Positions 10,004 through 56,788 of a stretch of 64,000 nt of DNA are shown here, piece after piece. The notes under the pieces were generated by a model, which was not told the DNA's origin, made no database searches, and saw only the letters and a program-made list of their open reading frames with translations. The position numbers and the translations under genes are program-made. The first letter of the stretch is position 1, and each line of letters opens with the position of its first letter. This DNA comes from Thermococcus argininiproducens (GTDB taxonomy: Archaea > Methanobacteriota_B > Thermococci > Thermococcales > Thermococcaceae): contig NZ_CP080572.1 of the NCBI RefSeq assembly GCF_023746595.1, positions 124,001-188,000 on the forward strand. The letters run 5' to 3'.

Positions 10004-10137
10004 TCTTTCCCACCTCAAGATGATCGTGACTCTTATCTAACTTAATGTGAATAAAATTCATACTTAAATCTTTTGGTGCATTATGACCAAAAACCACTTT
10101 AAGAATGAAGTCCAATAGCAAAAATGGTGATTTCATT

Positions 10138-10785
10138 ATGAAAGTTATAGGAGACATTCACCTTGTGGATAACACGTTTGCAAACGTCTATCTCATAGTG
10201 AGAGATAACAAGCTCATAATAATAGACACCGGCCTGCCAGAAGAGTATGAGAAAATAATAAAATACATAGACAGCCTTGGCCGAATTCCGGAGGAAGTGG
10301 AGATTATTATAGCCACTCACGCTCATTATGACCATATAGGGGCACTGAAAGTCCTTAAAGAAGCCACGGGAGCAAAGGTTGCCGCTCATAAGGAGGAGAT
10401 CCCATACATAAATGGGGAGAAAGTTTTCAAAAAAGGCTACACACCAGTTTCAGAGCCTGTTGATGTCGAGATTTCTCTAGAAGATGGGGATGAAATTAAA
10501 GGGCTTAAAGTTATTCACTCTCCCGGCCACACTCCTGGAAGCATTTGTTTGCTTGATCTAGAGACAAAGGCCCTATTTGTCGGTGACTTAGTTGTGGAGC
10601 AAAAGGGGGAGCTTTACGAGGTTCCACATCATTATTCCATTGACCCAATGAAGAACAGGGAAGCTATAAAGGAGCTTTTGGAGATTGATTTCAACCATTT
10701 GCTGCCGAGTCATGGAAATCCTGTCTTAAATGAGGGGAAGGAGAAGTTGAGGGAGTTAGTGGAAAGGTTTTTAAAGAGTGATTAA
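10138..10785 (+). CDS. Metallo-beta-lactamase fold hydrolase
   Basis: The 215-residue protein belongs to the MBL-fold superfamily, glyoxalase-II-like branch, and probably hydrolyses a thioester or similar bond using two metal ions. The signature THAHYDH lies near residue 60, with further metal ligands in SPGHTPGS near residue 125, VGDLV near residue 146 and PSHGNP near residue 189. The ATG at 10138 follows GGTGAT at the right distance; an ATG at 10105 lacks one. It is divergent from the ArsR-type regulator, with an ACTTAAATCTTTT promoter at 10061-10073. Confidence 0.88.
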   Translation: MKVIGDIHLVDNTFANVYLIVRDNKLIIIDTGLPEEYEKIIKYIDSLGRIPEEVEIIIATHAHYDHIGALKVLKEATGAKVAAHKEEIPYINGEKVFKKGYTPVSEPVDVEISLEDGDEIKGLKVIHSPGHTPGSICLLDLETKALFVGDLVVEQKGELYEVPHHYSIDPMKNREAIKELLEIDFNHLLPSHGNPVLNEGKEKLRELVERFLKSD

Positions 10786-10939
10786 TTTTGAGTTTTACTT
10801 AAACTCTATGAAAAGAAAATATAAAAATCCACTAATTATTGTCTAAGTTTTGTTAATCTTTCTAATTTATTCCCAGAGAAATAAATCGATCTAATATGAT
10901 AAAGTAAAGAGAAATATTTTAATACTACTTTGAGATAGA

Positions 10940-10953
10940 GATCATTGGTGATC
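10940..10953. promoter_or_regulatory. Inverted repeat at the EVE gene ribosome site
   Basis: GATCA-TTGG-TGATC is a perfect inverted repeat containing the ribosome site GGTGATC and lying 4 bases before the ATG of the EVE gene. It shares the core TCATTGGTGA with the repeat at 5373-5386. It also holds two GATC sites, the sequence recognised by DpnII/Dam enzymes such as those encoded downstream. It could be an operator or a translation-controlling hairpin. Confidence 0.35.
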
Positions 10954-10957
10954 AATA

Positions 10958-11395
10958 ATGCCGTATTGGCTTTGTATAACAAATAGAGAAAATTGGAAAA
11001 TAATAAAGAACAATAATATCTGGGGTGTTCCAGAGAAGAGACACAAAAATACGCTCCTAAAAGTTAAACCTAAGGATAAAGTGATCATCTATATCAAGCA
11101 AGAAAAAGACCAGGAGGGAAACACTCTAGAGCCAAAGATTGTTGCTATTTACGAGGTTGTCAGTGAACCATTCAAGGACTCTAAAAAAGTGTTTAAAGCT
11201 CCAAAAAATAGTAATGAAACATATCCCTGGAGAATTAAACTTAAACTCATTAAGTCCGGCGAAATCGAATTTAAGCCTTTAATTCCAAAATTAAGTTTTA
11301 TCAAGAACAAAAAGAAATGGTCAACACACTTATTCGGAAAAGCCATGCGTGAGATCCCAGAAGAAGATTATAAATTAATTGAGAAACTCCTTTAA
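10958..11395 (+). CDS. EVE domain protein
   Basis: The 145-residue protein is a stand-alone EVE domain, a PUA/YTH-related fold thought to bind modified nucleotides and often linked to defence against modified DNA. It opens [20 protein letters not shown] and shows the typical [11 protein letters not shown] and [10 protein letters not shown] stretches. Ribosome site and ATG are clear. It is the left border gene of the AT-rich defence island. A diverged copy of its last 45 codons lies at the right border (21926-22063). Confidence 0.85.
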
Positions 11396-11432
11396 TTTCC
11401 TATTTCTTTTAAATTATACTGGAGGTAGGTAT

Positions 11433-11894
11433 GTGATAGCAGCAGAAATTGAAATAAATGATTTTAAAATTTCTACAAAAAACGGAAAGAAGAGCCCAAA
11501 TGATTTTATAATACAAGCAAAATTTCGGGGAAATAAGCGTCTTTTTACCCCCAAACACGCCCATTTTGTGATCGATTTCTACGGAAAACTTTGTTATAAT
11601 AAAGAGATTGCCAAGAAATTATTTAATGCAATTAAAAAAGTTTATAGTGGAGAATCTCCTGAGAAGGTTCTAACTGATATGAATCCTGATGATATTAAAC
11701 AGATTAACAATGCACCTGGTTACCCAATAGAGTATATTCTCTACACATTATGGTTGATTTTTGAGCAAGAAGACATTAATTATCCACGTTCTGAAGGATA
11801 TAAAGGGAGACAACAACCATATCAGATGTTCCAAGATGTTTTGAATGGCATACATCCAGTAAATGCAATGAAAAAAACTGGACTTAGAATATAG
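11433..11894 (+). CDS. Unknown protein between EVE and methyltransferase genes
   Basis: I do not recognise this 153-residue soluble, lysine-rich protein. The GTG at 11433 is chosen because GGAGG precedes it by 7 bases; the nearby ATG is out of frame, and the frame further upstream overlaps the EVE gene without a ribosome site. A possible helical domain near residue 105 (APGYPIEYILYTLWLIFEQE) is followed by a charged tail ending MKKTGLRI. The gene is AT-rich like the rest of the island and sits 46 bases before the methyltransferase, suggesting a defence-related partner. Confidence 0.6.
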   Translation: MIAAEIEINDFKISTKNGKKSPNDFIIQAKFRGNKRLFTPKHAHFVIDFYGKLCYNKEIAKKLFNAIKKVYSGESPEKVLTDMNPDDIKQINNAPGYPIEYILYTLWLIFEQEDINYPRSEGYKGRQQPYQMFQDVLNGIHPVNAMKKTGLRI

Positions 11895-11940
11895 AATAAT
11901 TTTTAAAGCTTTAGAATAGCAATAAATTCGGTGAGAAGTT

Positions 11941-12933
11941 ATGGACAGATATGTCCCAATGCGAGAAGTTCCATTTGACGAATATCTGGAATATGTAAAA
12001 ACACATGATCATGTGATTATTGAGAACAGAAAAATTACAATTGGAAAATCCCTTCATATAAATACCTTCCAACCCTCTAAGTTCGAGTTGGAAAGTTCCA
12101 CTGTGTGGAGTTTTCCTGACCGAGGAAAATGGGCCACTCATTATGCTAATGCTAAATACAGGGGGAATTGGGCCCCTCAAGTGCCAAGGAATTTGATCTT
12201 AAAATATACAAAGCCTAAAGAAGTAGTGTTAGATGCATTTTTAGGAAGTGGCACAACGTTGATAGAATGTAAGCTTTTAGGAAGACATGGAATCGGAATT
12301 GACATTAATTATGAAGCTCTAATGGTAGCATGGGATAGACTTAATTTCACATATACTCCCCAATTAGAGAAGAAAGCAGATTTAAGTGCATTTCTTCACG
12401 GAAAAGAAGAAAAAGAAGAAAAAGAGTGGATCGAACCTACAATAAAACTTTATCATGGGGATGCCAGAAATCTCGATAAAATAGATGATGAAAGTATAGA
12501 TTTGATAGCTACCCATCCACCTTATGCCAATATTATTAGTTACAGTAAAAAAGCTAAATTAGAAGTTAAAGGGGATCTTTCTAAAGTTGTCTCAGTCGAT
12601 GAATTTGTTGATGAAATGCAAAAAGTCGCTAGTGAGTTTTATAGGGTTCTAAAACCTGGCAGGCATGCTGCCATACTTATGGGAGATACAAGAAGGCACA
12701 GGCATTATGTGCCTATTGCTTTTAGAGTTATGGAAGCATTTTTGGAAGTGGGTTTTATATTGAAAGAAGACATTATAAAGTTGCAACACAATATGATTGG
12801 TACAATTCCTTGGAAAAAATGGCATCGGGATTTCCATTTAATCGCTCATGAGCACTTGTTTATATTTAGAAAGCCAGGAAAAGGAGAAAACGTTAGAAAA
12901 TTTAAAGAAAGTATAAAATGGTGGATGGGTTAG
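11941..12933 (+). CDS. Site-specific DNA methyltransferase
   Basis: This 330-residue SAM-dependent DNA amino-methyltransferase has motif I as DAFLGSGTTLIE from residue 98 and catalytic motif IV as THPPY at residues 191-195, a less common variant of (D/N/S)PPY. The motif order I then IV and the SAM-binding GIGIDINYEAL fit the N6-adenine/N4-cytosine class. No target-recognition domain can be named. It sits directly upstream of the helicase/DUF1998/PLD fusion gene, the place a DISARM methylase would occupy. It may mark self DNA for that system rather than for the DpnII pair, which has its own Dam enzyme. Confidence 0.75.
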   Translation: MDRYVPMREVPFDEYLEYVKTHDHVIIENRKITIGKSLHINTFQPSKFELESSTVWSFPDRGKWATHYANAKYRGNWAPQVPRNLILKYTKPKEVVLDAFLGSGTTLIECKLLGRHGIGIDINYEALMVAWDRLNFTYTPQLEKKADLSAFLHGKEEKEEKEWIEPTIKLYHGDARNLDKIDDESIDLIATHPPYANIISYSKKAKLEVKGDLSKVVSVDEFVDEMQKVASEFYRVLKPGRHAAILMGDTRRHRHYVPIAFRVMEAFLEVGFILKEDIIKLQHNMIGTIPWKKWHRDFHLIAHEHLFIFRKPGKGENVRKFKESIKWWMG

Positions 12934-13040
12934 TAATTAATTTATGTTTTAGTAATTACTAGAATTGATAATTAAATAGTTTAATAAGACGTAAGATATT
13001 TAACGTTTCGTTCAATAAAGAAATATAGTGGGGATACTCA

Positions 13041-16000
13041 ATGACAGGTACTGGGGAATTAAGAGAGATTTATCATGCATTATTGGAGATTGAATATAAT
13101 AAATATGAGTCCACTAAACATCTAAATGATACATTTCTTGAGGAGGCGGATTTGAAAAGGTATCCAGATGAAGTTATCTTAGAACTTTTGTCGAGAGGAT
13201 TTCTTATTAAGTTAGGAAAGAACAAGTATAGAACTATTCATATGGATATTGCAGTTAGGAGTGTTGATGTTAGATCAAGTTATTTTGGGAATAAGCGTAT
13301 TTTGGAATATCAACTATTACGCCGAAAAGTACCTGTTTTACGGAGAGACTATTTAGACTTAACGAATTCTGAGCATCCAAGGTATAAGACATTTTTTACA
13401 CTTCTTTTGAGCATTATTCATGATGAGGAATTAGTAAGGATTTTGATAGATAGTCTGGTTAAGGGGAACATTCGAGGATTGTCAAAATATCAGTTTGATT
13501 CTATTCGAACAATTCTTACGAGTAGTAACTCTCCAGTAGTTGTCTCAGCACCCACAGGTTTTGGAAAAACATTTGTTTATTTTGTTCCAATATTGGTTGA
13601 GGCATTAAAGGCAAAAAAAGATAATATTCCTGGGCCAAAGGCCGTTCTATTTTATCCGAGGAAGACACTTGAATCAGATCAAATGAGTGAGATGATATCT
13701 GTTCTGTATCACCTTAATGAAATCCTTCCGGATTCTATTGGGAAAATAACTATAGCTATTGATGATGGCAACACAAAACGATTAGATAAGATAGAAGAGG
13801 GGGAATTATTTAGAGGAATTAGGGACCCTATAACTGGAGAACAACTTAAAATTAAAAAAACGACCTCTGAAGCATTTGTTGAGATAAATGGAAAAAGAGT
13901 TGATTGGATTCTTATTGACAAGGATTCTATCCGGGAGAATCCTCCTGATATCCTAATTACTAATATTTGGGCTTATCAGTATAAACTAGTGGATAGAAGA
14001 TATTGGAAGGGATATCTTTCTGATAAGATTAAATATTTTGTATTTGATGAAGTACATACATATAGAGGTATTGGAGCAGGGATTCTTAGATACTTTATTC
14101 GCTCTATTATGTCATTAATTTCTCCTCGGGCAAAGTTAATATTATCTTCCGCTACAATTCCGAAAATAAAAGATTTTGTTGAAGAGATTACAGGGTATCC
14201 ATATATAAAATTTGCAAAAGCTGTTTATAGTGAGTCTATTCATGGGATTGATTTCTATAAGTATGAGCTATATCTTTTACTCGGGATCTCTCCAGGAATT
14301 CACTGGGGAACTTATACATATGAGTTGGCATTATATCTTGCTATATTGAATAGGCTCTATGAATATGCTAAAAAGTCCAAATTACAAACAATTACTTTCA
14401 TTGATTCTATAAAAGAAATTGATAGGCTTAAATCTCAGACTATCCAAGCTATAACTCTTGCTGATGACCGTATTCTCCCCCATTTAAACAAGGAAATGCA
14501 TTCCAATCCAGAAGACTCGTTTGTCTATTGGATATATAATCCTAATATAGTGGATGATCAAAATAGTTTAGAAAAGATAATCAAAGAGTTGGAAAAGAAG
14601 ATTGAGCATCATTATTCGAGTAGGGCAGATAGATACGAAATTGAAGAAAGATTGAAACGTAAAGACATTGATGTTATTTATGCTACTAATACTCTTGAGT
14701 TGGGAGTGAATTATAGTTCTGTATCTATTGTAGTTAATGCTGGGATACCTCTTTCTAAAGAAAGTATAATTCAAAGAATGGGGAGAGCTGGAAGAAACAG
14801 TAAGGATACATTAAATACTGCCGTAGGTATAGTGATTATTCGTAATAATCCATTAGAATATTATTATTTGTACACAGGTTTAGAGGAGTTGTTGGATATT
14901 AGTAAAGCTCCTAAGATTCCGGTCTCTTATAATAATCATTTTGTTATATTGTTTTCGGCATTACTTTACTCGGCATTTGATTTAAGTAGACGTGGGATGA
15001 AAAACAAAATTAGGGTGGGGGATGAGGATTCTCTAGTTTCAGCAATAGAAGATCTATGGATGTACTATCTTGCCAATAAGAGTGAGATTCAAAAACGATT
15101 GGGATTTCCAGAATTCCCCGAGAAATTGGAAGCTAGAGTTACTAAGCTCCTCGACTTAATTAAACAACCCGATATTGGTTCTAAATGTGATAAGTATAAA
15201 GAAAGAACTAGGATAGAATACTTGTTTTCTGAATTTGAAGAAATAAAAATTGAAATAAATAATCTCTTGAAAACTGTGGAAGAGACCAGCAGATCAATTT
15301 CTATTGACAGGAAAATTTTAGAGAGGATAATAACTGATATTAAATTATATCTTAAACAAAAATTGCCAAAAGACATCAAGGGGGTACATTCTCACTTGTT
15401 GTACTTGGATCAGAAGCTATCAGAAATGGAGGGTTATCTGGTTAGAGTTTTGATTTCTTCGGAACTGGTAAGAGATCTAGAAGAGATTAGAGAGAGAATT
15501 ATTCAATTAAATAAATTCTTACTTGGATTGGGTGACATTGTCTCAATGTCGGAAGATAGGATACCCCCTTTATTAACTATTGCCTGTGACTTTCTGGATA
15601 GGCTTAATTCTGCAAAAGATAGACGTGGGTATGTTCACATAATTAATGTCATTGAAGAACTGATGGGGTTTAAGTTTTTAGGGATTGATTTTATAGAAGA
15701 AAAAGTTAGACTTAATTATCAAAATTCTAACAGAGATGATGTAATAGAATATTTAACTTCCATTATAGCTAGAGTTCCTCCTTTTGAAGTTAGGAGTTAT
15801 CCGTATGATGAACCTGATCAGTCTAAACTAACAAGCTATGTCGGAGGAAGATATGTATGGTTTGTACGTCCCAAATTTTACAGAATATATGCTCCAGATT
15901 GTCAGACAATTGAGAACATATTACGAAATGAAGGTATTTATGATGGTATTTCTACTAAGTACTCCGATTTTGTTACCCCTCAAAGGATAGTTTTGTTGGA

Positions 16001-17843
16001 CCTTTTAGAAAATTCTCCACTTATCTTGAAAATTATTTGTAAGGATAATCGTCCATTGTTCATAAAGTATGGTTCCAACTCAATTACTAATGCTAAAATA
16101 TTTGCTGGGAGAGGAGTTTATCAGCTAGGTAACAATGTTAAAAAACTTAAGCAATTTGGGAGACAATGGAAAAATTATGATATAACCCTCAGAGCTACAC
16201 TTGAGAAACTAGAGGAACTTAAAGAAAAAAGCAAAAGCCTTCCTTATCCTGGGATAATGTTAAACTATATTTCGTATTGTGACTTAGGATATGCAATATC
16301 TACTGATCCCTGGGATATTGTGTGTCCAGAACTAATTAGAAGGGAATGTCCAGTGTTTAAGAAAAAGAAATGTGATGAAAAACAATTCTGGAATACTTTT
16401 AGAAATATTTTCCCACGTATCTATGTACAGAAAAAAGTGGAAATCCCCAAGGAAGTATTGCCTGAGGAAGATATTTCTCCATTATTTATGCGGTTTAAGG
16501 TTATTCAATACCACAAAATTGAGAATAATCCATTGGTATTCTATTATGACTCTGTTTCATTTCCAGTCCCAGTGTCTTTTGTTTCTGATTACAGAATTAG
16601 AGAATTTGACATTCAAAAAATCGGATATCATGCTATAACTTCAATGATATTGATTGAATTTAACATCACATTACTCGAACTTATTTCTAGATTCTTATTG
16701 GCGGATGGGTTAATCAAGGAATTAATTTTATTTAAGAAATTCATGCATGATTACATGCTTCGTATGCCACTTTGGAATATAACTGTAAATGATCTTGAGA
16801 AATTTGGAGAATTTAAGACCAATATATCAGATCAAGAATTGGTACACTTTACTATCAAGATATTGTTACATACTTTCGCCCATAGATTCCTTGTATTTTT
16901 GAGTTCTAGATATGGAGTTGAAATGTCCAAGTTGTTGTATCAGTTAGATGTGAAAAAAGGTAGGATTTTCATCATTGAAAATGCTAAGAGTGATGGGTTG
17001 GGAATAGTAGAGACTTTTGAAAAAGACATTCAAAAAGGATGGATAAATATCCTTAATGAATTTATAACCAAGGAAATGCTATTTTTTGATAAACATGAGA
17101 AAAATGTAAACTCTCAAAGAGTTAAGATTCAAAAAGAGTATTCTAAGAATCTCAGGGATTTATCAACTAAAAAGAAAATGATCCAAGAATTAAAAGAGGA
17201 TATTGAGGCACTTAATCAGAGAATTTCAGATATAATTCCGGTAGAATTTCTGGGATACTCTATGTATAGATATTTACTGCTAAACTCTATCAGAGGAATA
17301 ACTAATTCTGAGAAAAGACCATATTTATCATTGGTTCAAGGGAGCTTAGGAGTTCCACATTTATGTTATGATGGTTGTAATGCATGTTTGATATTTGAAA
17401 GAGGGTGTAATGAACCATTTGTACAAGAGTTTACCTTGTCTAAACAGCTATATTTGAGGTTTTTAAAGGTTTTAAGGTCAGGGTCATTTTCACTGTTAGA
17501 TATTAAAGGGTTTGGTGAGTATTTCAGGAAACTTCTACTGAATTCCAAGGAAGTAGAGATTAAGGTTCCATTTGTTGACAAGAGTGGTATTGATATACTC
17601 CGAGAGGCCTTAGAAAAGGGAGTTAAAATAAATCTTGTTACAAGGTCTGACACATTTAAATTTATACCTCCAGATATTTCAGATAAAGTTGATATAACAA
17701 TTCAGGAGGATTTTCACTCCAAAATTTACACGCTAAGACAGAATAACACAGTGGTGAGACTTTCTGGTTCGGTAAACTTGAATACATCTAGTTTGTTTGA
17801 AAAGAAAGAGAATATTACAATCGAGATTTTATTAGAGGGTTGA
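13041..17843 (+). CDS. Giant helicase-DUF1998-PLD fusion, DISARM-like (DrmA+DrmB+DrmC)
   Basis: This 1600-residue protein looks like three DISARM-type defence proteins in one chain. An SF2 helicase comes first: Walker A SAPTGFGKT from residue 168, DEVH at 336-339, SSAT near 368, and QRMGRAGR near 577. The middle includes a coiled region (about 700-860) and a cysteine group (CPELIRRECPVFKKKKC, near 1095). An MZB/DUF1998-like part begins with HTFAHRF at 1277 and has CYDGCNAC at 1441. The end is phospholipase-D-like, with HSKIY at 1559 followed by GSVNLNTSS. In known DISARM these are separate genes; the fused order matches A-B-C. The gene is very AT-rich, suggesting transfer. Domain calls are by motif only. 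Confidence 0.75.
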   Translation: MTGTGELREIYHALLEIEYNKYESTKHLNDTFLEEADLKRYPDEVILELLSRGFLIKLGKNKYRTIHMDIAVRSVDVRSSYFGNKRILEYQLLRRKVPVLRRDYLDLTNSEHPRYKTFFTLLLSIIHDEELVRILIDSLVKGNIRGLSKYQFDSIRTILTSSNSPVVVSAPTGFGKTFVYFVPILVEALKAKKDNIPGPKAVLFYPRKTLESDQMSEMISVLYHLNEILPDSIGKITIAIDDGNTKRLDKIEEGELFRGIRDPITGEQLKIKKTTSEAFVEINGKRVDWILIDKDSIRENPPDILITNIWAYQYKLVDRRYWKGYLSDKIKYFVFDEVHTYRGIGAGILRYFIRSIMSLISPRAKLILSSATIPKIKDFVEEITGYPYIKFAKAVYSESIHGIDFYKYELYLLLGISPGIHWGTYTYELALYLAILNRLYEYAKKSKLQTITFIDSIKEIDRLKSQTIQAITLADDRILPHLNKEMHSNPEDSFVYWIYNPNIVDDQNSLEKIIKELEKKIEHHYSSRADRYEIEERLKRKDIDVIYATNTLELGVNYSSVSIVVNAGIPLSKESIIQRMGRAGRNSKDTLNTAVGIVIIRNNPLEYYYLYTGLEELLDISKAPKIPVSYNNHFVILFSALLYSAFDLSRRGMKNKIRVGDEDSLVSAIEDLWMYYLANKSEIQKRLGFPEFPEKLEARVTKLLDLIKQPDIGSKCDKYKERTRIEYLFSEFEEIKIEINNLLKTVEETSRSISIDRKILERIITDIKLYLKQKLPKDIKGVHSHLLYLDQKLSEMEGYLVRVLISSELVRDLEEIRERIIQLNKFLLGLGDIVSMSEDRIPPLLTIACDFLDRLNSAKDRRGYVHIINVIEELMGFKFLGIDFIEEKVRLNYQNSNRDDVIEYLTSIIARVPPFEVRSYPYDEPDQSKLTSYVGGRYVWFVRPKFYRIYAPDCQTIENILRNEGIYDGISTKYSDFVTPQRIVLLDLLENSPLILKIICKDNRPLFIKYGSNSITNAKIFAGRGVYQLGNNVKKLKQFGRQWKNYDITLRATLEKLEELKEKSKSLPYPGIMLNYISYCDLGYAISTDPWDIVCPELIRRECPVFKKKKCDEKQFWNTFRNIFPRIYVQKKVEIPKEVLPEEDISPLFMRFKVIQYHKIENNPLVFYYDSVSFPVPVSFVSDYRIREFDIQKIGYHAITSMILIEFNITLLELISRFLLADGLIKELILFKKFMHDYMLRMPLWNITVNDLEKFGEFKTNISDQELVHFTIKILLHTFAHRFLVFLSSRYGVEMSKLLYQLDVKKGRIFIIENAKSDGLGIVETFEKDIQKGWINILNEFITKEMLFFDKHEKNVNSQRVKIQKEYSKNLRDLSTKKKMIQELKEDIEALNQRISDIIPVEFLGYSMYRYLLLNSIRGITNSEKRPYLSLVQGSLGVPHLCYDGCNACLIFERGCNEPFVQEFTLSKQLYLRFLKVLRSGSFSLLDIKGFGEYFRKLLLNSKEVEIKVPFVDKSGIDILREALEKGVKINLVTRSDTFKFIPPDISDKVDITIQEDFHSKIYTLRQNNTVVRLSGSVNLNTSSLFEKKENITIEILLEG

Positions 17844-17847
17844 TAAT

Positions 17848-19224
17848 ATGGAAACTTTAATCACATTGGAAACGAGCAAAATTAATAGTAACATTTACTT
17901 AATAAACCCCTTTATTCGTTATTATACTTTATTTAGAAAAATTAGTACACATATCATTAAGGCAAGAAAAAGGATGCCTGTAGAAGTACATAATGTATTA
18001 TATTCCTACCCAGTATATCTTCCAGAAATTGATTACATGATATTCTTGGATGTTTCTAGTAATGAGCTTAATAAAAAGATCCTTTCTGAGTTTTCTGCGT
18101 ATTCTGGGTTGAGGAGTGCCAAAGAGCTAATTTTCCAAGCTAAATTGTATAATTTCAACAAGGAAAATAGAGCTGTTACGTGGGGTAATATACAGTCTTA
18201 TGTTTTTGAGAAAAAGCTTAGAGATTTATACCAGTGTTTTTACTACTTAGTTAATTTTAGTCTGAGGATTACCCCGTCTATCATTCTTGGAAATAAATTA
18301 ATATCCCCAAATAGGTGGGCTTTGTTATCTACTGAGACACATACTCGGATATTTTCAACAAAAGTTTCTCTAAATGTCTTCCCAGTATATATTGAGAAAG
18401 AAGCCCTAAAAAATATTAAAAAAAGGCAAGTATTTTTGCCATTACCTATGACCCTTTATGAAATAAAAGCAACAGCTTTAGAGTTTTTTCCTACTGGTAA
18501 TATTCATATTTTGAATATCCCATTACATTTTGTTGATCATCCATCTAGAGAATTCATTTTATCTGAGATTGAGGGTAGTGGGGAATATTATATTGTCTAT
18601 GCTTTTTCATTTCTTGATGTTAATACTAGCGGGAATAACAAGATGATAAATATTGTTGAAAATATCATGCCCCTTTATCCAATTGATATTCTATTGGGAT
18701 TATCGGTAATGTATATGGAATCCCAAGAAATTGGCAAATTAATATGGAGAATTAACTTTAATAGAGCAAACGTAGAGCGTATAAGGCGAGTCTTGTCTAA
18801 GAGATCGGCTTCTATATATCTACATGGAGCATGGATAGATCTTATCTCTTCAAAGTTCTATCCATTCTTTAATATTGAAGAAAATGGGACTCATTTATCA
18901 GTAAGAGCCATAAATCCAGGTTTTTTGGCACATATGTTTAGAAGAATATTTTTCGAAAAAGGGCATGAAGATAATATTTTCCTATTGAAAAAGCTTCAAG
19001 AGTTATTTAGCATGTTAGAGGAGTATAATGAAATTCAACAGAAAAAAGGTAATGCTAGCATTGTAGAATTGTTAGGATATAAGAGACAATTTGAGGAGAA
19101 ATATAGAAAAAAATACGGGAAGGGAGTGTGGAACCTTTTAGTTAGAGCTTCTTCAATAGTAAGAATTCGTGAGTATGTGTTGAGGAAGTACAGAGATATT
19201 ATTCTACAACATACAAGGAGGTAG
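17848..19224 (+). CDS. Unknown defence-island protein
   Basis: I recognise no family in this 458-residue protein. It starts 4 bases after the helicase fusion and ends 5 bases before the DpnII-type gene, so it is almost certainly cotranscribed with them. It is rich in Ile, Lys, Asn and aromatic residues, with no signal peptide, clear transmembrane run, P-loop or zinc motif. Long helices are likely in the last 100 residues, with YKRQFEEKYRKKYGKGVWNL near residue 410. Given the neighbours it may be a structural or sensing partner of the fused helicase. Confidence 0.65.
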   Translation: METLITLETSKINSNIYLINPFIRYYTLFRKISTHIIKARKRMPVEVHNVLYSYPVYLPEIDYMIFLDVSSNELNKKILSEFSAYSGLRSAKELIFQAKLYNFNKENRAVTWGNIQSYVFEKKLRDLYQCFYYLVNFSLRITPSIILGNKLISPNRWALLSTETHTRIFSTKVSLNVFPVYIEKEALKNIKKRQVFLPLPMTLYEIKATALEFFPTGNIHILNIPLHFVDHPSREFILSEIEGSGEYYIVYAFSFLDVNTSGNNKMINIVENIMPLYPIDILLGLSVMYMESQEIGKLIWRINFNRANVERIRRVLSKRSASIYLHGAWIDLISSKFYPFFNIEENGTHLSVRAINPGFLAHMFRRIFFEKGHEDNIFLLKKLQELFSMLEEYNEIQQKKGNASIVELLGYKRQFEEKYRKKYGKGVWNLLVRASSIVRIREYVLRKYRDIILQHTRR

Positions 19225-19229
19225 AGGAT

Positions 19230-20135
19230 ATGGTTAAGTATTTGGAATTAAGGTATAAAACATTTGAAGAATATTTTGAGAACTTTATTGATACTTTACT
19301 CTCAACAAACAAGACTTATGAATATTTTGTTGATTGGGAAAAAGTGAAGAATGTCGTTTTGAAATATGAAAAAGAGCTGGCTCTGTTAAAACAATTGTAC
19401 GAATTGAAACCTAAAAAAGCTAAAGAGCGATTAAAATTATTGCTACAAGAGCATCCAACAATACTGCCTCTTATCCCCGCTCTAATCGCTGAAAGAACTG
19501 ATAAAGGATTATTAAGTATTTATGACCCAGATAAAATGCAATTTGTAGAATTTAATTTTAAGTCGCACTTTTTAACAGAGAGCGAAATTAATCAAATAGT
19601 TGAATTTTGTGAAAAAACGGGACTATTGGATGTCTTGATTAGTGTTCAAAATTTGAGAGATTACCTATTTGGGGTTGAGGTTGGGATTGATACAAACGCT
19701 AGGAAAGGGAGAAGTGGCACACTTTTTGAAAAAATGGTAAAAAGATTCCTTGAGAAAAATTTGCCTGAATATGTAAGAGTCATTCCTCAGGATAGAAGGT
19801 TTTCTCTCTATGAGACTATTGGAAGAACTAAAAAGGAGAAAGCTAAAAGGCATGACTTCGTATTGTATAAAGAAGAAACTCCTATTATGGCTATAGAAGT
19901 CAATTTCTACAATGTTACAGGAAGTAAACCGATAGAGATTGTTGGGAGTTATATTACTCTAAATAAGGCAGCCAAAGAAAAAGGAATTGCCTTTGTGTGG
20001 GTTACAGACGGACCAGCGTGGAAAAAGATGAGGGAGCCATTAATGAGAGGAATGAAAGAAATTGAGTGGGTTGTTAATTATTTCCAACTTCAGAAGCTTA
20101 TTCAATATTTCAACTCCATTAACTGGGAAATTTAA
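19230..20135 (+). CDS. DpnII-type restriction endonuclease (GATC)
   Basis: The 301-residue protein matches the DpnII/MboI family of type II endonucleases that cut unmethylated GATC. Family features are the helical N-terminus with LLKQLYELKPKKAKE, the NARKGRSGTLFE motif near residue 152, and a PD-(D/E)xK-type centre around RHDFVLY and AIEVNFYN (residues 207-230). A ribosome site AGGAGG precedes it. It is convergent with the Dam methylase 15 bases downstream, the usual pairing for this system. It is last in the operon with the helicase fusion. Confidence 0.87.
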   Translation: MVKYLELRYKTFEEYFENFIDTLLSTNKTYEYFVDWEKVKNVVLKYEKELALLKQLYELKPKKAKERLKLLLQEHPTILPLIPALIAERTDKGLLSIYDPDKMQFVEFNFKSHFLTESEINQIVEFCEKTGLLDVLISVQNLRDYLFGVEVGIDTNARKGRSGTLFEKMVKRFLEKNLPEYVRVIPQDRRFSLYETIGRTKKEKAKRHDFVLYKEETPIMAIEVNFYNVTGSKPIEIVGSYITLNKAAKEKGIAFVWVTDGPAWKKMREPLMRGMKEIEWVVNYFQLQKLIQYFNSINWEI

Positions 20136-20150
20136 AAAGAGGAGATGAAA

Positions 20151-21113
20151 CTACACCTTTACAAGAAACTCTGCTATAGTTATTTGTTTTTTAATTTCTC
20201 TTTTAGTCATTGACATCATTTTTGTTCCGTTTCCATTTTTTGTTAATTCAATTGCTTTTGAGATACCAACTCTAAGCTCTTTTGGCACATTGGTGACTAA
20301 TATTTCTGCTATTTTTCCTCTTTTATCTGCTTTTGAGTTTATGGCTCTGTTAGCATAAACAGTAATAACCTCAAATTCTTTGATTCCTTCATATAGCTCC
20401 CTAACTGGCTGAGCATGAGAGTTACTCAGGATAAAGTAAACTCCCATTTCATGTAATTCAATACACACATCTCTTAACCTTTCTTGATCTTTTTGAGTGA
20501 AGTCATCTTTTGAGTAGCTAGTGAAGTTAGCTGTTTTGGAAATTGGATGATACGGGGGATCGAAGTATACTAGATCCCCTGGCCGAGCAACAGTTAGGAT
20601 ATATGTAAAGTCTTCATTGTAAATTTCAAGTCTCTTCAGAACTTCACTGACTTTTCTAAGTCTCTCTTCATCTACTATTGTTGGATTTTTATATCTACCA
20701 AAAGGAACGTTGAATTCTCCTTTTCTATTTTCTCTATAGAGGCCATTATATCCTGTCTTATTTAAATACAGAAGTAAGCTTGCAAGCCTTATGTGTGGAG
20801 GTCTGAAACCTTCTCTGATTATCTTATTAAACTCTTCCCTAGCCTTATAGTAATACTCTTTTTCATTTTTATGCTGCTTTGCATCTTGTATTAGTTCTTC
20901 AACATAATCTCTAACCACAAGATAGAAGTTTATTAGTTTAAGATTAATGTCATTGATTGTTCCTCTTTTTGGCTCTAGCCAAAAAGTAACTGCTCCTCCT
21001 CCAAAAAATGGTTCATGGAATGTTCTCTCTTTGAAATCTTTTGGCATTAGTGCTACTATTTGAGGCAATATCTGTCTTTTTCCTCCAGCCCATTTTAACA
21101 CAGGTTCGGCCAT
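20151..21113 (-). CDS. Dam-type DNA adenine methylase (GATC)
   Basis: This 320-residue D12-class N6-adenine methyltransferase probably protects GATC sites from the adjacent endonuclease. It opens with the SAM-binding motif LKWAGGKRQILPQI, then FHEPFFGGGAVTFWL near residue 36, and the catalytic DPPYHP near residue 184. The start at 21113 is selected because GGAGAGGATG lies just before it; the longer frame to 21167 would place the N-terminus inside the promoter. The upstream region carries three copies of GTGCAACA, suggesting dedicated regulation. Confidence 0.9.
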   Translation of the reverse strand: MAEPVLKWAGGKRQILPQIVALMPKDFKERTFHEPFFGGGAVTFWLEPKRGTINDINLKLINFYLVVRDYVEELIQDAKQHKNEKEYYYKAREEFNKIIREGFRPPHIRLASLLLYLNKTGYNGLYRENRKGEFNVPFGRYKNPTIVDEERLRKVSEVLKRLEIYNEDFTYILTVARPGDLVYFDPPYHPISKTANFTSYSKDDFTQKDQERLRDVCIELHEMGVYFILSNSHAQPVRELYEGIKEFEVITVYANRAINSKADKRGKIAEILVTNVPKELRVGISKAIELTKNGNGTKMMSMTKREIKKQITIAEFLVKV

Positions 21114-21171
21114 TTTATCATCCTCTCCATATTCAATTCTCTTTAGCTTAATAAAGTTATTATACATTTGT

Positions 21172-55693: not shown

Positions 55694-56788
55694 TTATTTA
55701 TTATACCTCAGCACATGGATATCCCTAACCACCCGATGTCTCTCTTCAAAGTCTGTGTATCTTGCCATGACTTCAAAACCAAGCTTTTCAAGCCATTTTC
55801 TCTCTTTTCTATAAATCCTGCCATCATTGAGCTTATAGGCTGGAAAGACAAAAACAACCCTTCCATGCCTCTTCAAAACATCCCTAAACCTATCAAAAAC
55901 AGTGTAATAGAATCTATCAAGCTCATTTGCAAGTTTTATTGCTTCTCCTTTAGTAGGGTGATATTTCAAAGGCTTGCCCATATAAGGCTCTGTAACTATT
56001 GCATCAAATTTGACTCTGAAGCAACGTTTGAGTTTTCTTGCATCACAAACTTCGAGATGGGCGCTCTTTCTAACCCTAAATTCCTTTTTCAACCACTTTA
56101 AGTTCTCTTTGGCCCCATTGATAGCTTTGGGATTGGAATCACTCCCATAAGCATTAAGACCTTGAAGCAAGAACTCCTGCACTATTGTGCCTATACCACA
56201 AAATGGATCAAGAAAGTTACCTTGTCTAATTTCGGTTAGATTTACCATTATTCTAGCCAAACGTGGGGGTATTGAAAGAATCGCCCTCTGCACAGGCCTT
56301 TCAACATCGAGCTTTTTAAGCTCAAAGGGATCTGCTACAGCAATTGTCTCTCCCACATAGAGATTTCTCCCAAAGATAAAGACAAAGTCCTTAACTTCTG
56401 GAAAACCTTTTAAAACAAGTTCTGAGGGCATTGCATAGACCTTAGCAGGTTTAAAGAACTTGGAAGAACCTTGAGATTTAAAATGTTTCTTTATCCCACT
56501 CCCAAGCTTTCTCCAAAGCTTCCAATCATCTTTTCCGTAAATGCTCACGGTAAAATGCTTGGTATATTCCAGACCCCGTATCGCTTCTTCCTCCTCTCCA
56601 ACAATCTTCACAAGCTTTAAAGAGCCTCCAAGTTTATGAAAAAGCCGTTCTACGCTTTTATCACCATCAAAAACCATCCAATGTTTAGAACTCTCAATGA
56701 TTTTAATCTTTAATCCAAATCTCTTTGTAAACGCCAAGAATTCGGCTTCGCTAAGCCTCGGGTTTTTCCCATAGATGATCGCATACAT
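55694..56788 (-). CDS. TRM11/UPF0020-type RNA methyltransferase
   Basis: The 364-residue protein has an N-terminal THUMP-like part (residues 1-160) and a C-terminal SAM methyltransferase domain with motif I FLDPFCGIGTIVQEFLLQG near residue 194 and motif IV VTEPYMGKP near residue 268. This resembles TrmG10/TRM11 tRNA guanosine-N2 methylases, but the usual DPPYG is EPYMG, so it is a paralogue or acts differently. The promoter holds a 12-base palindrome next to the ATG. Confidence 0.77.
   Translation of the reverse strand: MYAIIYGKNPRLSEAEFLAFTKRFGLKIKIIESSKHWMVFDGDKSVERLFHKLGGSLKLVKIVGEEEEAIRGLEYTKHFTVSIYGKDDWKLWRKLGSGIKKHFKSQGSSKFFKPAKVYAMPSELVLKGFPEVKDFVFIFGRNLYVGETIAVADPFELKKLDVERPVQRAILSIPPRLARIMVNLTEIRQGNFLDPFCGIGTIVQEFLLQGLNAYGSDSNPKAINGAKENLKWLKKEFRVRKSAHLEVCDARKLKRCFRVKFDAIVTEPYMGKPLKYHPTKGEAIKLANELDRFYYTVFDRFRDVLKRHGRVVFVFPAYKLNDGRIYRKERKWLEKLGFEVMARYTDFEERHRVVRDIHVLRYNK

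Follow-up and report, generated by a model that had tools for sequence, protein, structure and literature searches.

DISARM combines a YprA-type helicase (DrmA), a DUF1998 canopy (DrmB), a PLD nuclease (DrmC) and a DNA methylase (DrmMI or DrmMII), and DrmC appears to be dispensable in this system (PMC9142583). In MrfA and in DrmAB, the DUF1998 canopy moves with RecA2 on single-stranded DNA (PMC12458937, PMC9142583). In their main text, Bell et al. (PMC12458937) describe the ARMADA, BRIGADE and TALON systems and mention deep Dpd-like systems. SauUSI is an ATP-dependent restriction enzyme consisting of a helicase and a PLD part (PMC7913695), and methylases of the DUF1156 kind have been described in BREX-related systems (PMC12839542). 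We found no paper describing the arrangement reported here; it is absent from the main text of Bell et al., whose supplement may include the proteins.

Here we compare these systems with a locus in the window, the 64,000-nucleotide stretch of Thermococcus argininiproducens DNA under study. A complete open reading frame on the plus strand (13041-17843; 1600 amino acids, no internal stops) encodes SF2 helicase motifs, a cysteine region of the DUF1998/MZB type and a PLD-type HxK motif in one chain, and it is flanked by a DNA methylase gene upstream and by a gene without any match in Pfam, PADLOC or NCBIfam downstream. The motifs and the gene order had been noted in an earlier reading of the sequence alone. 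That sequence-only reading likened the three parts to DrmA, DrmB and DrmC, and saw in the locus a compact archaeal variant of DISARM or a sister system. We propose that the fusion is probably an ATP-driven effector with helicase and nuclease functions, serving an antiviral restriction system guarded by a methylase and belonging to an archaeal branch of the YprA defence helicases next to DISARM and Dpd. The features of the locus are as follows; G009 denotes a sister species of the same genus.

11941-12933, plus strand: N6/N4 methylase upstream of the fusion (N6_N4_Mtase 1e-28; conserved flank)
13041-13475, plus strand: N-terminal region of the fusion (residues 1-145) with the family-conserved motifs YH, RGF and HMDIAxR (alignment A7)
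13476-14240, plus strand: RecA1 of the SF2 helicase (residues 146-400) with Walker A APTGFGKT, DEVH and SAT (Pfam DEAD 2e-16; alignment A7)
14562-14876, plus strand: RecA2 (residues 508-612) with motif VI QRMGRAGR (Pfam Helicase_C 3.1e-13; alignment A7)
15558-17468, plus strand: canopy region (residues 840-1476), presumed OB, connector and DUF1998 parts (alignments A5 and A10; AF2 model)
16278-16373, plus strand: four-cysteine module C1080, C1095, C1103, C1111 (alignment A11, cysteine list)
16869-17408, plus strand: DUF1998/MZB-type domain with H1277, H1281, E1313 and C1442xDGC1446xxC1449x6C1456 (alignment A10; MZB match in the homologous locus L099; hhalign to DrmB)
17475-17840, plus strand: PLD nuclease domain (residues 1479-1600) with HxK at 1559-1561 and a GSxN motif (Pfam PLDc_2, DpdK profile, Foldseek)
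17848-19224, plus strand: partner protein of 458 amino acids, 4 bp downstream of the fusion and conserved in the family
19230-20135, plus strand: DpnII-type restriction endonuclease (Pfam DpnII 2e-73), 5 bp after the partner gene and in the same block (synteny with G009)
20151-21167, minus strand: convergent Dam/DpnM-type adenine methylase, with a 94% identical counterpart in G009, which lacks the block

Pfam DEAD and Helicase_C together span residues 149-586, in the N-terminal third of the fusion, and positions 28-246 of the NCBIfam DpdJ model (NF041067) match residues 27-238 in the same register. Among PDB sequences, MrfA (YprA) ranks first (4.7e-15), and the fusion helicase, whose SF2 core is related to those of MrfA, DrmA, DpdJ and DruE, is assigned to the YprA family by sequence comparison. 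Its nearest profile families (DpdJ, DrmA and DruE) are all defence helicases. DpdJ is the best PADLOC model for helicases of the family (6e-33), followed by DrmA (2e-28) and the Druantia III models; it is the best model for the window protein as well as the top score within the family, even though the window protein reaches 81 bits against the NCBIfam DpdJ model, far under the cut-off of 800 bits. The distance from Walker A to motif VI is approximately 415 residues, compared with 435 in DpdJ, approximately 660 in two of three DrmA sequences and 465 in the other one, and approximately 1000 in Druantia III.

The stretch of approximately 640 residues between helicase and PLD has no convincing Pfam or PADLOC match in the window protein, and Pfam DUF1998/MZB is not matched by this protein itself. 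Among the 18 homologous canopies, however, one (L099) passes the curated Pfam MZB cut-off (1.4e-6; 29.3 vs 24.2 bits), and H1277, H1281, E1313, C1442, D1444, G1445, C1446, C1449 and C1456 are invariant or nearly so in the alignment of all 18. Both the histidine motif (LLHTLAH) and the CxDGCxxCx6C knuckle look like their DUF1998/MZB counterparts, hhalign aligns the canopy weakly with archaeal DrmB (E 2.2e-4) exactly at the HTLAH motif of DUF1998, and the canopy is similar to that of one haloarchaeal Dpd/BRIGADE-type helicase (8e-11). Because of the MZB match in L099, the profile-profile match to DrmB and this haloarchaeal similarity, we assign the canopy to DUF1998/MZB, so that a zinc domain of this type is predicted to follow the helicase core. 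The four-cysteine module, in which three cysteines are invariant and C1103 is nearly so among the 18 homologues, is a probable zinc site. Structure prediction, which the sequence-only reading had suggested as a check, gave a good AF2 model covering residues 840-1600 (mean pLDDT 85.5, pTM 0.82). The 50 Foldseek matches listed for it are all proteins of the PLD superfamily, and the assignment of the canopy thus comes from motif and profile rather than from fold. Searching the PDB with the canopy sequence gave nothing useful, the matches being low-complexity noise.

Pfam PLDc_2 covers residues 1502-1593 of the fusion (3.6e-6, barely above the curated cut-off), and a single HxK (H1559xK1561) provides one active-site half per chain. 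The H, K and N of the HxK and of the downstream Asn motif are invariant across the 18 homologues; the canonical Asp downstream of HxK is missing in the window protein and present in other members. While the DrmC profile does not match the PLD part, the DpdK profile does, at 1.2e-4 in the window protein and up to 2.9e-6 within the family, and MkoC, ZacB and PbeA are further profile matches. In the Foldseek comparison, SauUSI came out on top (6.4e-6), accompanied by Zucchini, NucT, Nuc, BfiI and R.NgoAVII, and the predicted PLD part is nuclease-like by fold.

The fusion belongs to a family that, on sequence comparison, is real and comprises 18 loci from the window's own phylum, two other archaeal phylum groups and a MAG assigned to Aenigmatarchaeota. 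Among 61 related genomes searched, G014 has a full-length homologue (36% identity) and G027 a two-gene version, and a canopy-PLD profile found G089, G067 and G071 among 115 genomes of the window's phylum, as well as the MAG locus (L037) in the genome collection. Further canopy-PLD relatives occur in the second phylum group (G138) and in the third (G352, G362, G473, G684, G534, G631, G423, G425, G457 and G651). A fragment in G485 and weaker matches were left out, and since genomes were partly sampled this distribution is a lower bound. The spread is sporadic, with six real matches in the 115 genomes of the phylum. The canopy-PLD profile found no relatives in the viral_contigs collection, and in plasmids the matches were limited to generic helicases of the YprA type and related ones, with nothing related to the 458-aa partner. 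All 18 loci carry the PLD on the canopy chain. Helicase and canopy-PLD are adjacent genes in 11 of them, mostly overlapping by 4-35 bp, and form a single chain in the remaining seven: the window, G014, G089, G138 (whose contig stops within the fusion gene), G352, the Aenigmatarchaeota MAG and G534. The same uninterrupted architecture in seven genomes argues against both chance and assembly error.

A maximum-likelihood tree built on 298 core columns places the family helicases in one clade (support 95), separate from archaeal DrmA, DpdJ, BRIGADE, ARMADA, Druantia, Lhr and YprA-only helicases. AU tests reject neither a union with DrmA (0.11) nor one with Dpd (0.48) or with ARMADA/BRIGADE/Druantia (0.41), and we therefore do not assign the family to DrmA, DpdJ or ARMADA/Druantia. 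With the exception of G534, the fused members group in one clade (support 93); with G534 outside it, helicase and canopy-PLD probably became one chain on two or more occasions, unless they were separated again in intervening lineages. The G534 gene (L097, 5392-10425) is a second, apparently independent helicase-canopy-PLD chain from a distant archaeon.

A DNA methylase lies near the module in all 16 other testable loci. In 15 of these its distance to a module gene or to the gene at the partner position is at most 180 bp, and in G534 it lies 2.6 kb from the fusion. Most of the methylases beside the module are DUF1156-like; nine neighbours were checked in Pfam, and an N6_N4 or D12 methylase signature is present in all except one, a weak case. 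The survey suggested by the sequence-only reading thus recovered the module in other archaea, but next to methylases of other kinds than the one upstream of the fusion in the window. At least seven further loci (L031, L045, L037, L093, L032, L046 and L047) encode a clear homologue of the 458-aa partner and G362 a probable one, the partner family spanning 404-465 aa. Genes of 418-473 aa occupy the partner position in L099, L101, L102, L098 and L097 and may be diverged partners, although BLAST does not join them to the partner; the genes c457 and c651 at this position are related to each other. An AF2 structure of the 458-aa partner was discarded (mean pLDDT 36.5).

Within this family, the window locus is unusual: a DpnII-type nuclease stands in its gene row, and we found no full DUF1156-like methylase in the genome. 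At 55694-56788, the window encodes a protein that matches a methylase motif (7e-7 against the DUF1156-like profile). The fusion, the 458-aa protein and the DpnII-type nuclease make up a 7.2-kb block (12941-20127), in whose place G009 has 0.85 kb (L048, 7362-8207, reverse strand) with a single 215-aa gene without Pfam family matches. The flanks are 83-90% identical at the DNA level; an EVE-domain gene upstream (10958-11395) is part of the conserved flank. G009 keeps both flanking methylases without the block, the Dam-type methylase occurring there without a DpnII-type endonuclease. Replacement between sister species argues that the block moved in or out as one unit, probably, and that the edge methylases belong to the site. 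In G009 and G020, orthologues of the upstream methylase are present while the fusion is missing, and in G014 and G027 they lie approximately 85 kb and 300 kb away from it, respectively, which rules out this methylase as a fixed part of the module. As an argument for DISARM in the sequence-only reading it is therefore weak, although the family as a whole is linked to methylases. Either edge methylase may have taken over a putative self-marking function in the window.

For an effector of the kind we propose, the helicase core would load on single-stranded or forked invader DNA and translocate, while the canopy, by analogy with MrfA and DrmAB, would clamp the strand and move with RecA2, and the tethered PLD domain would cut the DNA. 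In Nuc and BfiI, each chain contributes one HxK and two chains form one PLD active site. Because each chain of the fusion likewise brings one HxK, two chains probably pair in the same way. The neighbouring DNA methylase would mark host DNA as self, and the 458-aa partner is the likeliest candidate for a sensor or specificity part. The proposal is supported by the helicase, canopy and PLD signatures, the methylase link of the family, the sporadic spread and the block replacement, both usual for defence genes, as well as by overlapping genes in many loci, the defence helicases among the profile neighbours and the SauUSI-like PLD. Against it weigh the missing Asp after HxK in the window protein, the lack of a full DUF1156-like methylase in the window genome and the absence of a canopy match among the Foldseek matches listed.

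DISARM itself, in the form of a diverged DrmA-DrmB-DrmC fusion with its own methylase, would account for the three parts and the methylase next door, and the second rank of DrmA among the helicase models, the weak alignment to DrmB at the DUF1998 motif and an AU test that does not reject a union with DrmA are consistent with it. However, DrmB and DrmC profiles do not match, DpdK is best for the nuclease, the helicase core is smaller and DpdJ-like, and true DrmA and DrmB together with C5 methylase-like genes occur separately in one of the archaeal groups that also have the family. We consider DISARM membership quite unlikely, and of the two options offered by the sequence-only reading it is the sister system, with three parts in one chain and an archaeal family tied to methylases, that fits. 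A deeply branching form of Dpd, the system for 7-deazaguanine modification of DNA, with DpdJ fused to DpdK and methylation replacing the modified base, would explain why DpdJ and DpdK are the best matches and why core spacing and N-terminal register are the same as in DpdJ; the AU test is compatible with it and the main text of Bell et al. (PMC12458937) mentions deep Dpd-like systems retaining the zinc cluster. We nevertheless regard it as unlikely, given that none of the eight genes scanned (10105-21167, module included) is a deazaguanine gene, that methylases fill this place in 16 loci, and that PLD is always canopy-fused here but separate in Dpd.

The methylase link also bears on a Type IV-like enzyme acting on modified invader DNA, for which the methylases would be ordinary defence-island neighbours. 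Type IV enzymes need no methylase, yet one is present in each of the other testable loci, mostly overlapping or abutting and mostly of one kind; such an enzyme is thus very unlikely, even with SauUSI, likewise an SF2 helicase with PLD, as top structural match and with restriction genes of the DpnII type and a gene with an EVE domain around the window block. The sequence-only reading had named an ordinary Lhr/COG1205 helicase lacking DrmB or PLD similarity as the result that would speak against it. We found PLD and a weak DrmB motif alignment, but no DrmB profile match. SF2 similarity is family-wide and an 899-aa helicase of the window genome also matches the family profile, in favour of a repair helicase; the PLD domain, the partner gene and the methylase link led us to reject this candidate, and together with the patchy spread and the separate clade they leave it a negligible chance.

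If our proposal of a methylase-guarded effector is correct, a compact relative of DISARM that unites helicase, regulatory canopy and nuclease in one molecule exists in archaea, including heat-loving ones, and signal passing from a DISARM-type helicase to a nuclease could be probed with one purified protein. The covalent attachment of the nuclease in every member found argues that cutting belongs to the core mechanism of this branch, in contrast to the apparent dispensability of DrmC. There is about an even chance that the 18 loci represent a class of archaeal defence systems without a name so far, centred on YprA and guarded by a methylase, with the nuclease within the canopy chain, full fusion into an ATP-dependent restriction polypeptide in a few lineages and a partner matching no known family.

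In outline, the family resembles DISARM or Dpd, yet by sequence it appears to match neither, given the DrmB and DrmC searches and the lack of neighbouring deazaguanine genes. It shares with DISARM the YprA-type helicase, the DUF1998 canopy, the PLD nuclease and, in the 16 other testable loci, a nearby DNA methylase, and in 11 of 18 loci also the separation of helicase and canopy into two genes. It differs in the canopy-fused PLD of all loci, the single chain in seven, a partner of its own and a helicase core shorter than most DrmA; DrmB had no PADLOC match in seven members and was not among the NCBIfam matches listed for the window protein. Dpd offers the best helicase and PLD profile matches and equal core spacing, whereas the window module adjoins a methylase instead of deazaguanine genes (DpdA and others), and the family keeps a four-cysteine cluster and fuses the PLD that is separate in Dpd. 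BRIGADE of haloarchaea likewise pairs an archaeal YprA helicase with PLD and has the canopy knuckle C-x2-G-C-x2-C, and it is a BRIGADE-type helicase that shares the canopy similarity noted above; its loci, however, contain two helicases and a separate PLD gene, and tRNA-guanine transglycosylase-like genes in two of those examined. According to the main text of Bell et al. (PMC12458937), DruE of Druantia III carries a YprA helicase and a C-terminal PLD in a single chain, as the fusion does. It has 2088-2104 aa, a large insert between RecA1 and RecA2 and DruH rather than a methylase as its companion; the fusion lacks such an insert, and its partner gene has no PADLOC match. SauUSI is modification-dependent and, as far as known, has no YprA-type helicase with a DUF1998 canopy, but like the fusion it is a single chain that combines an SF2 helicase with a PLD nuclease; the two PLD parts match in structure.
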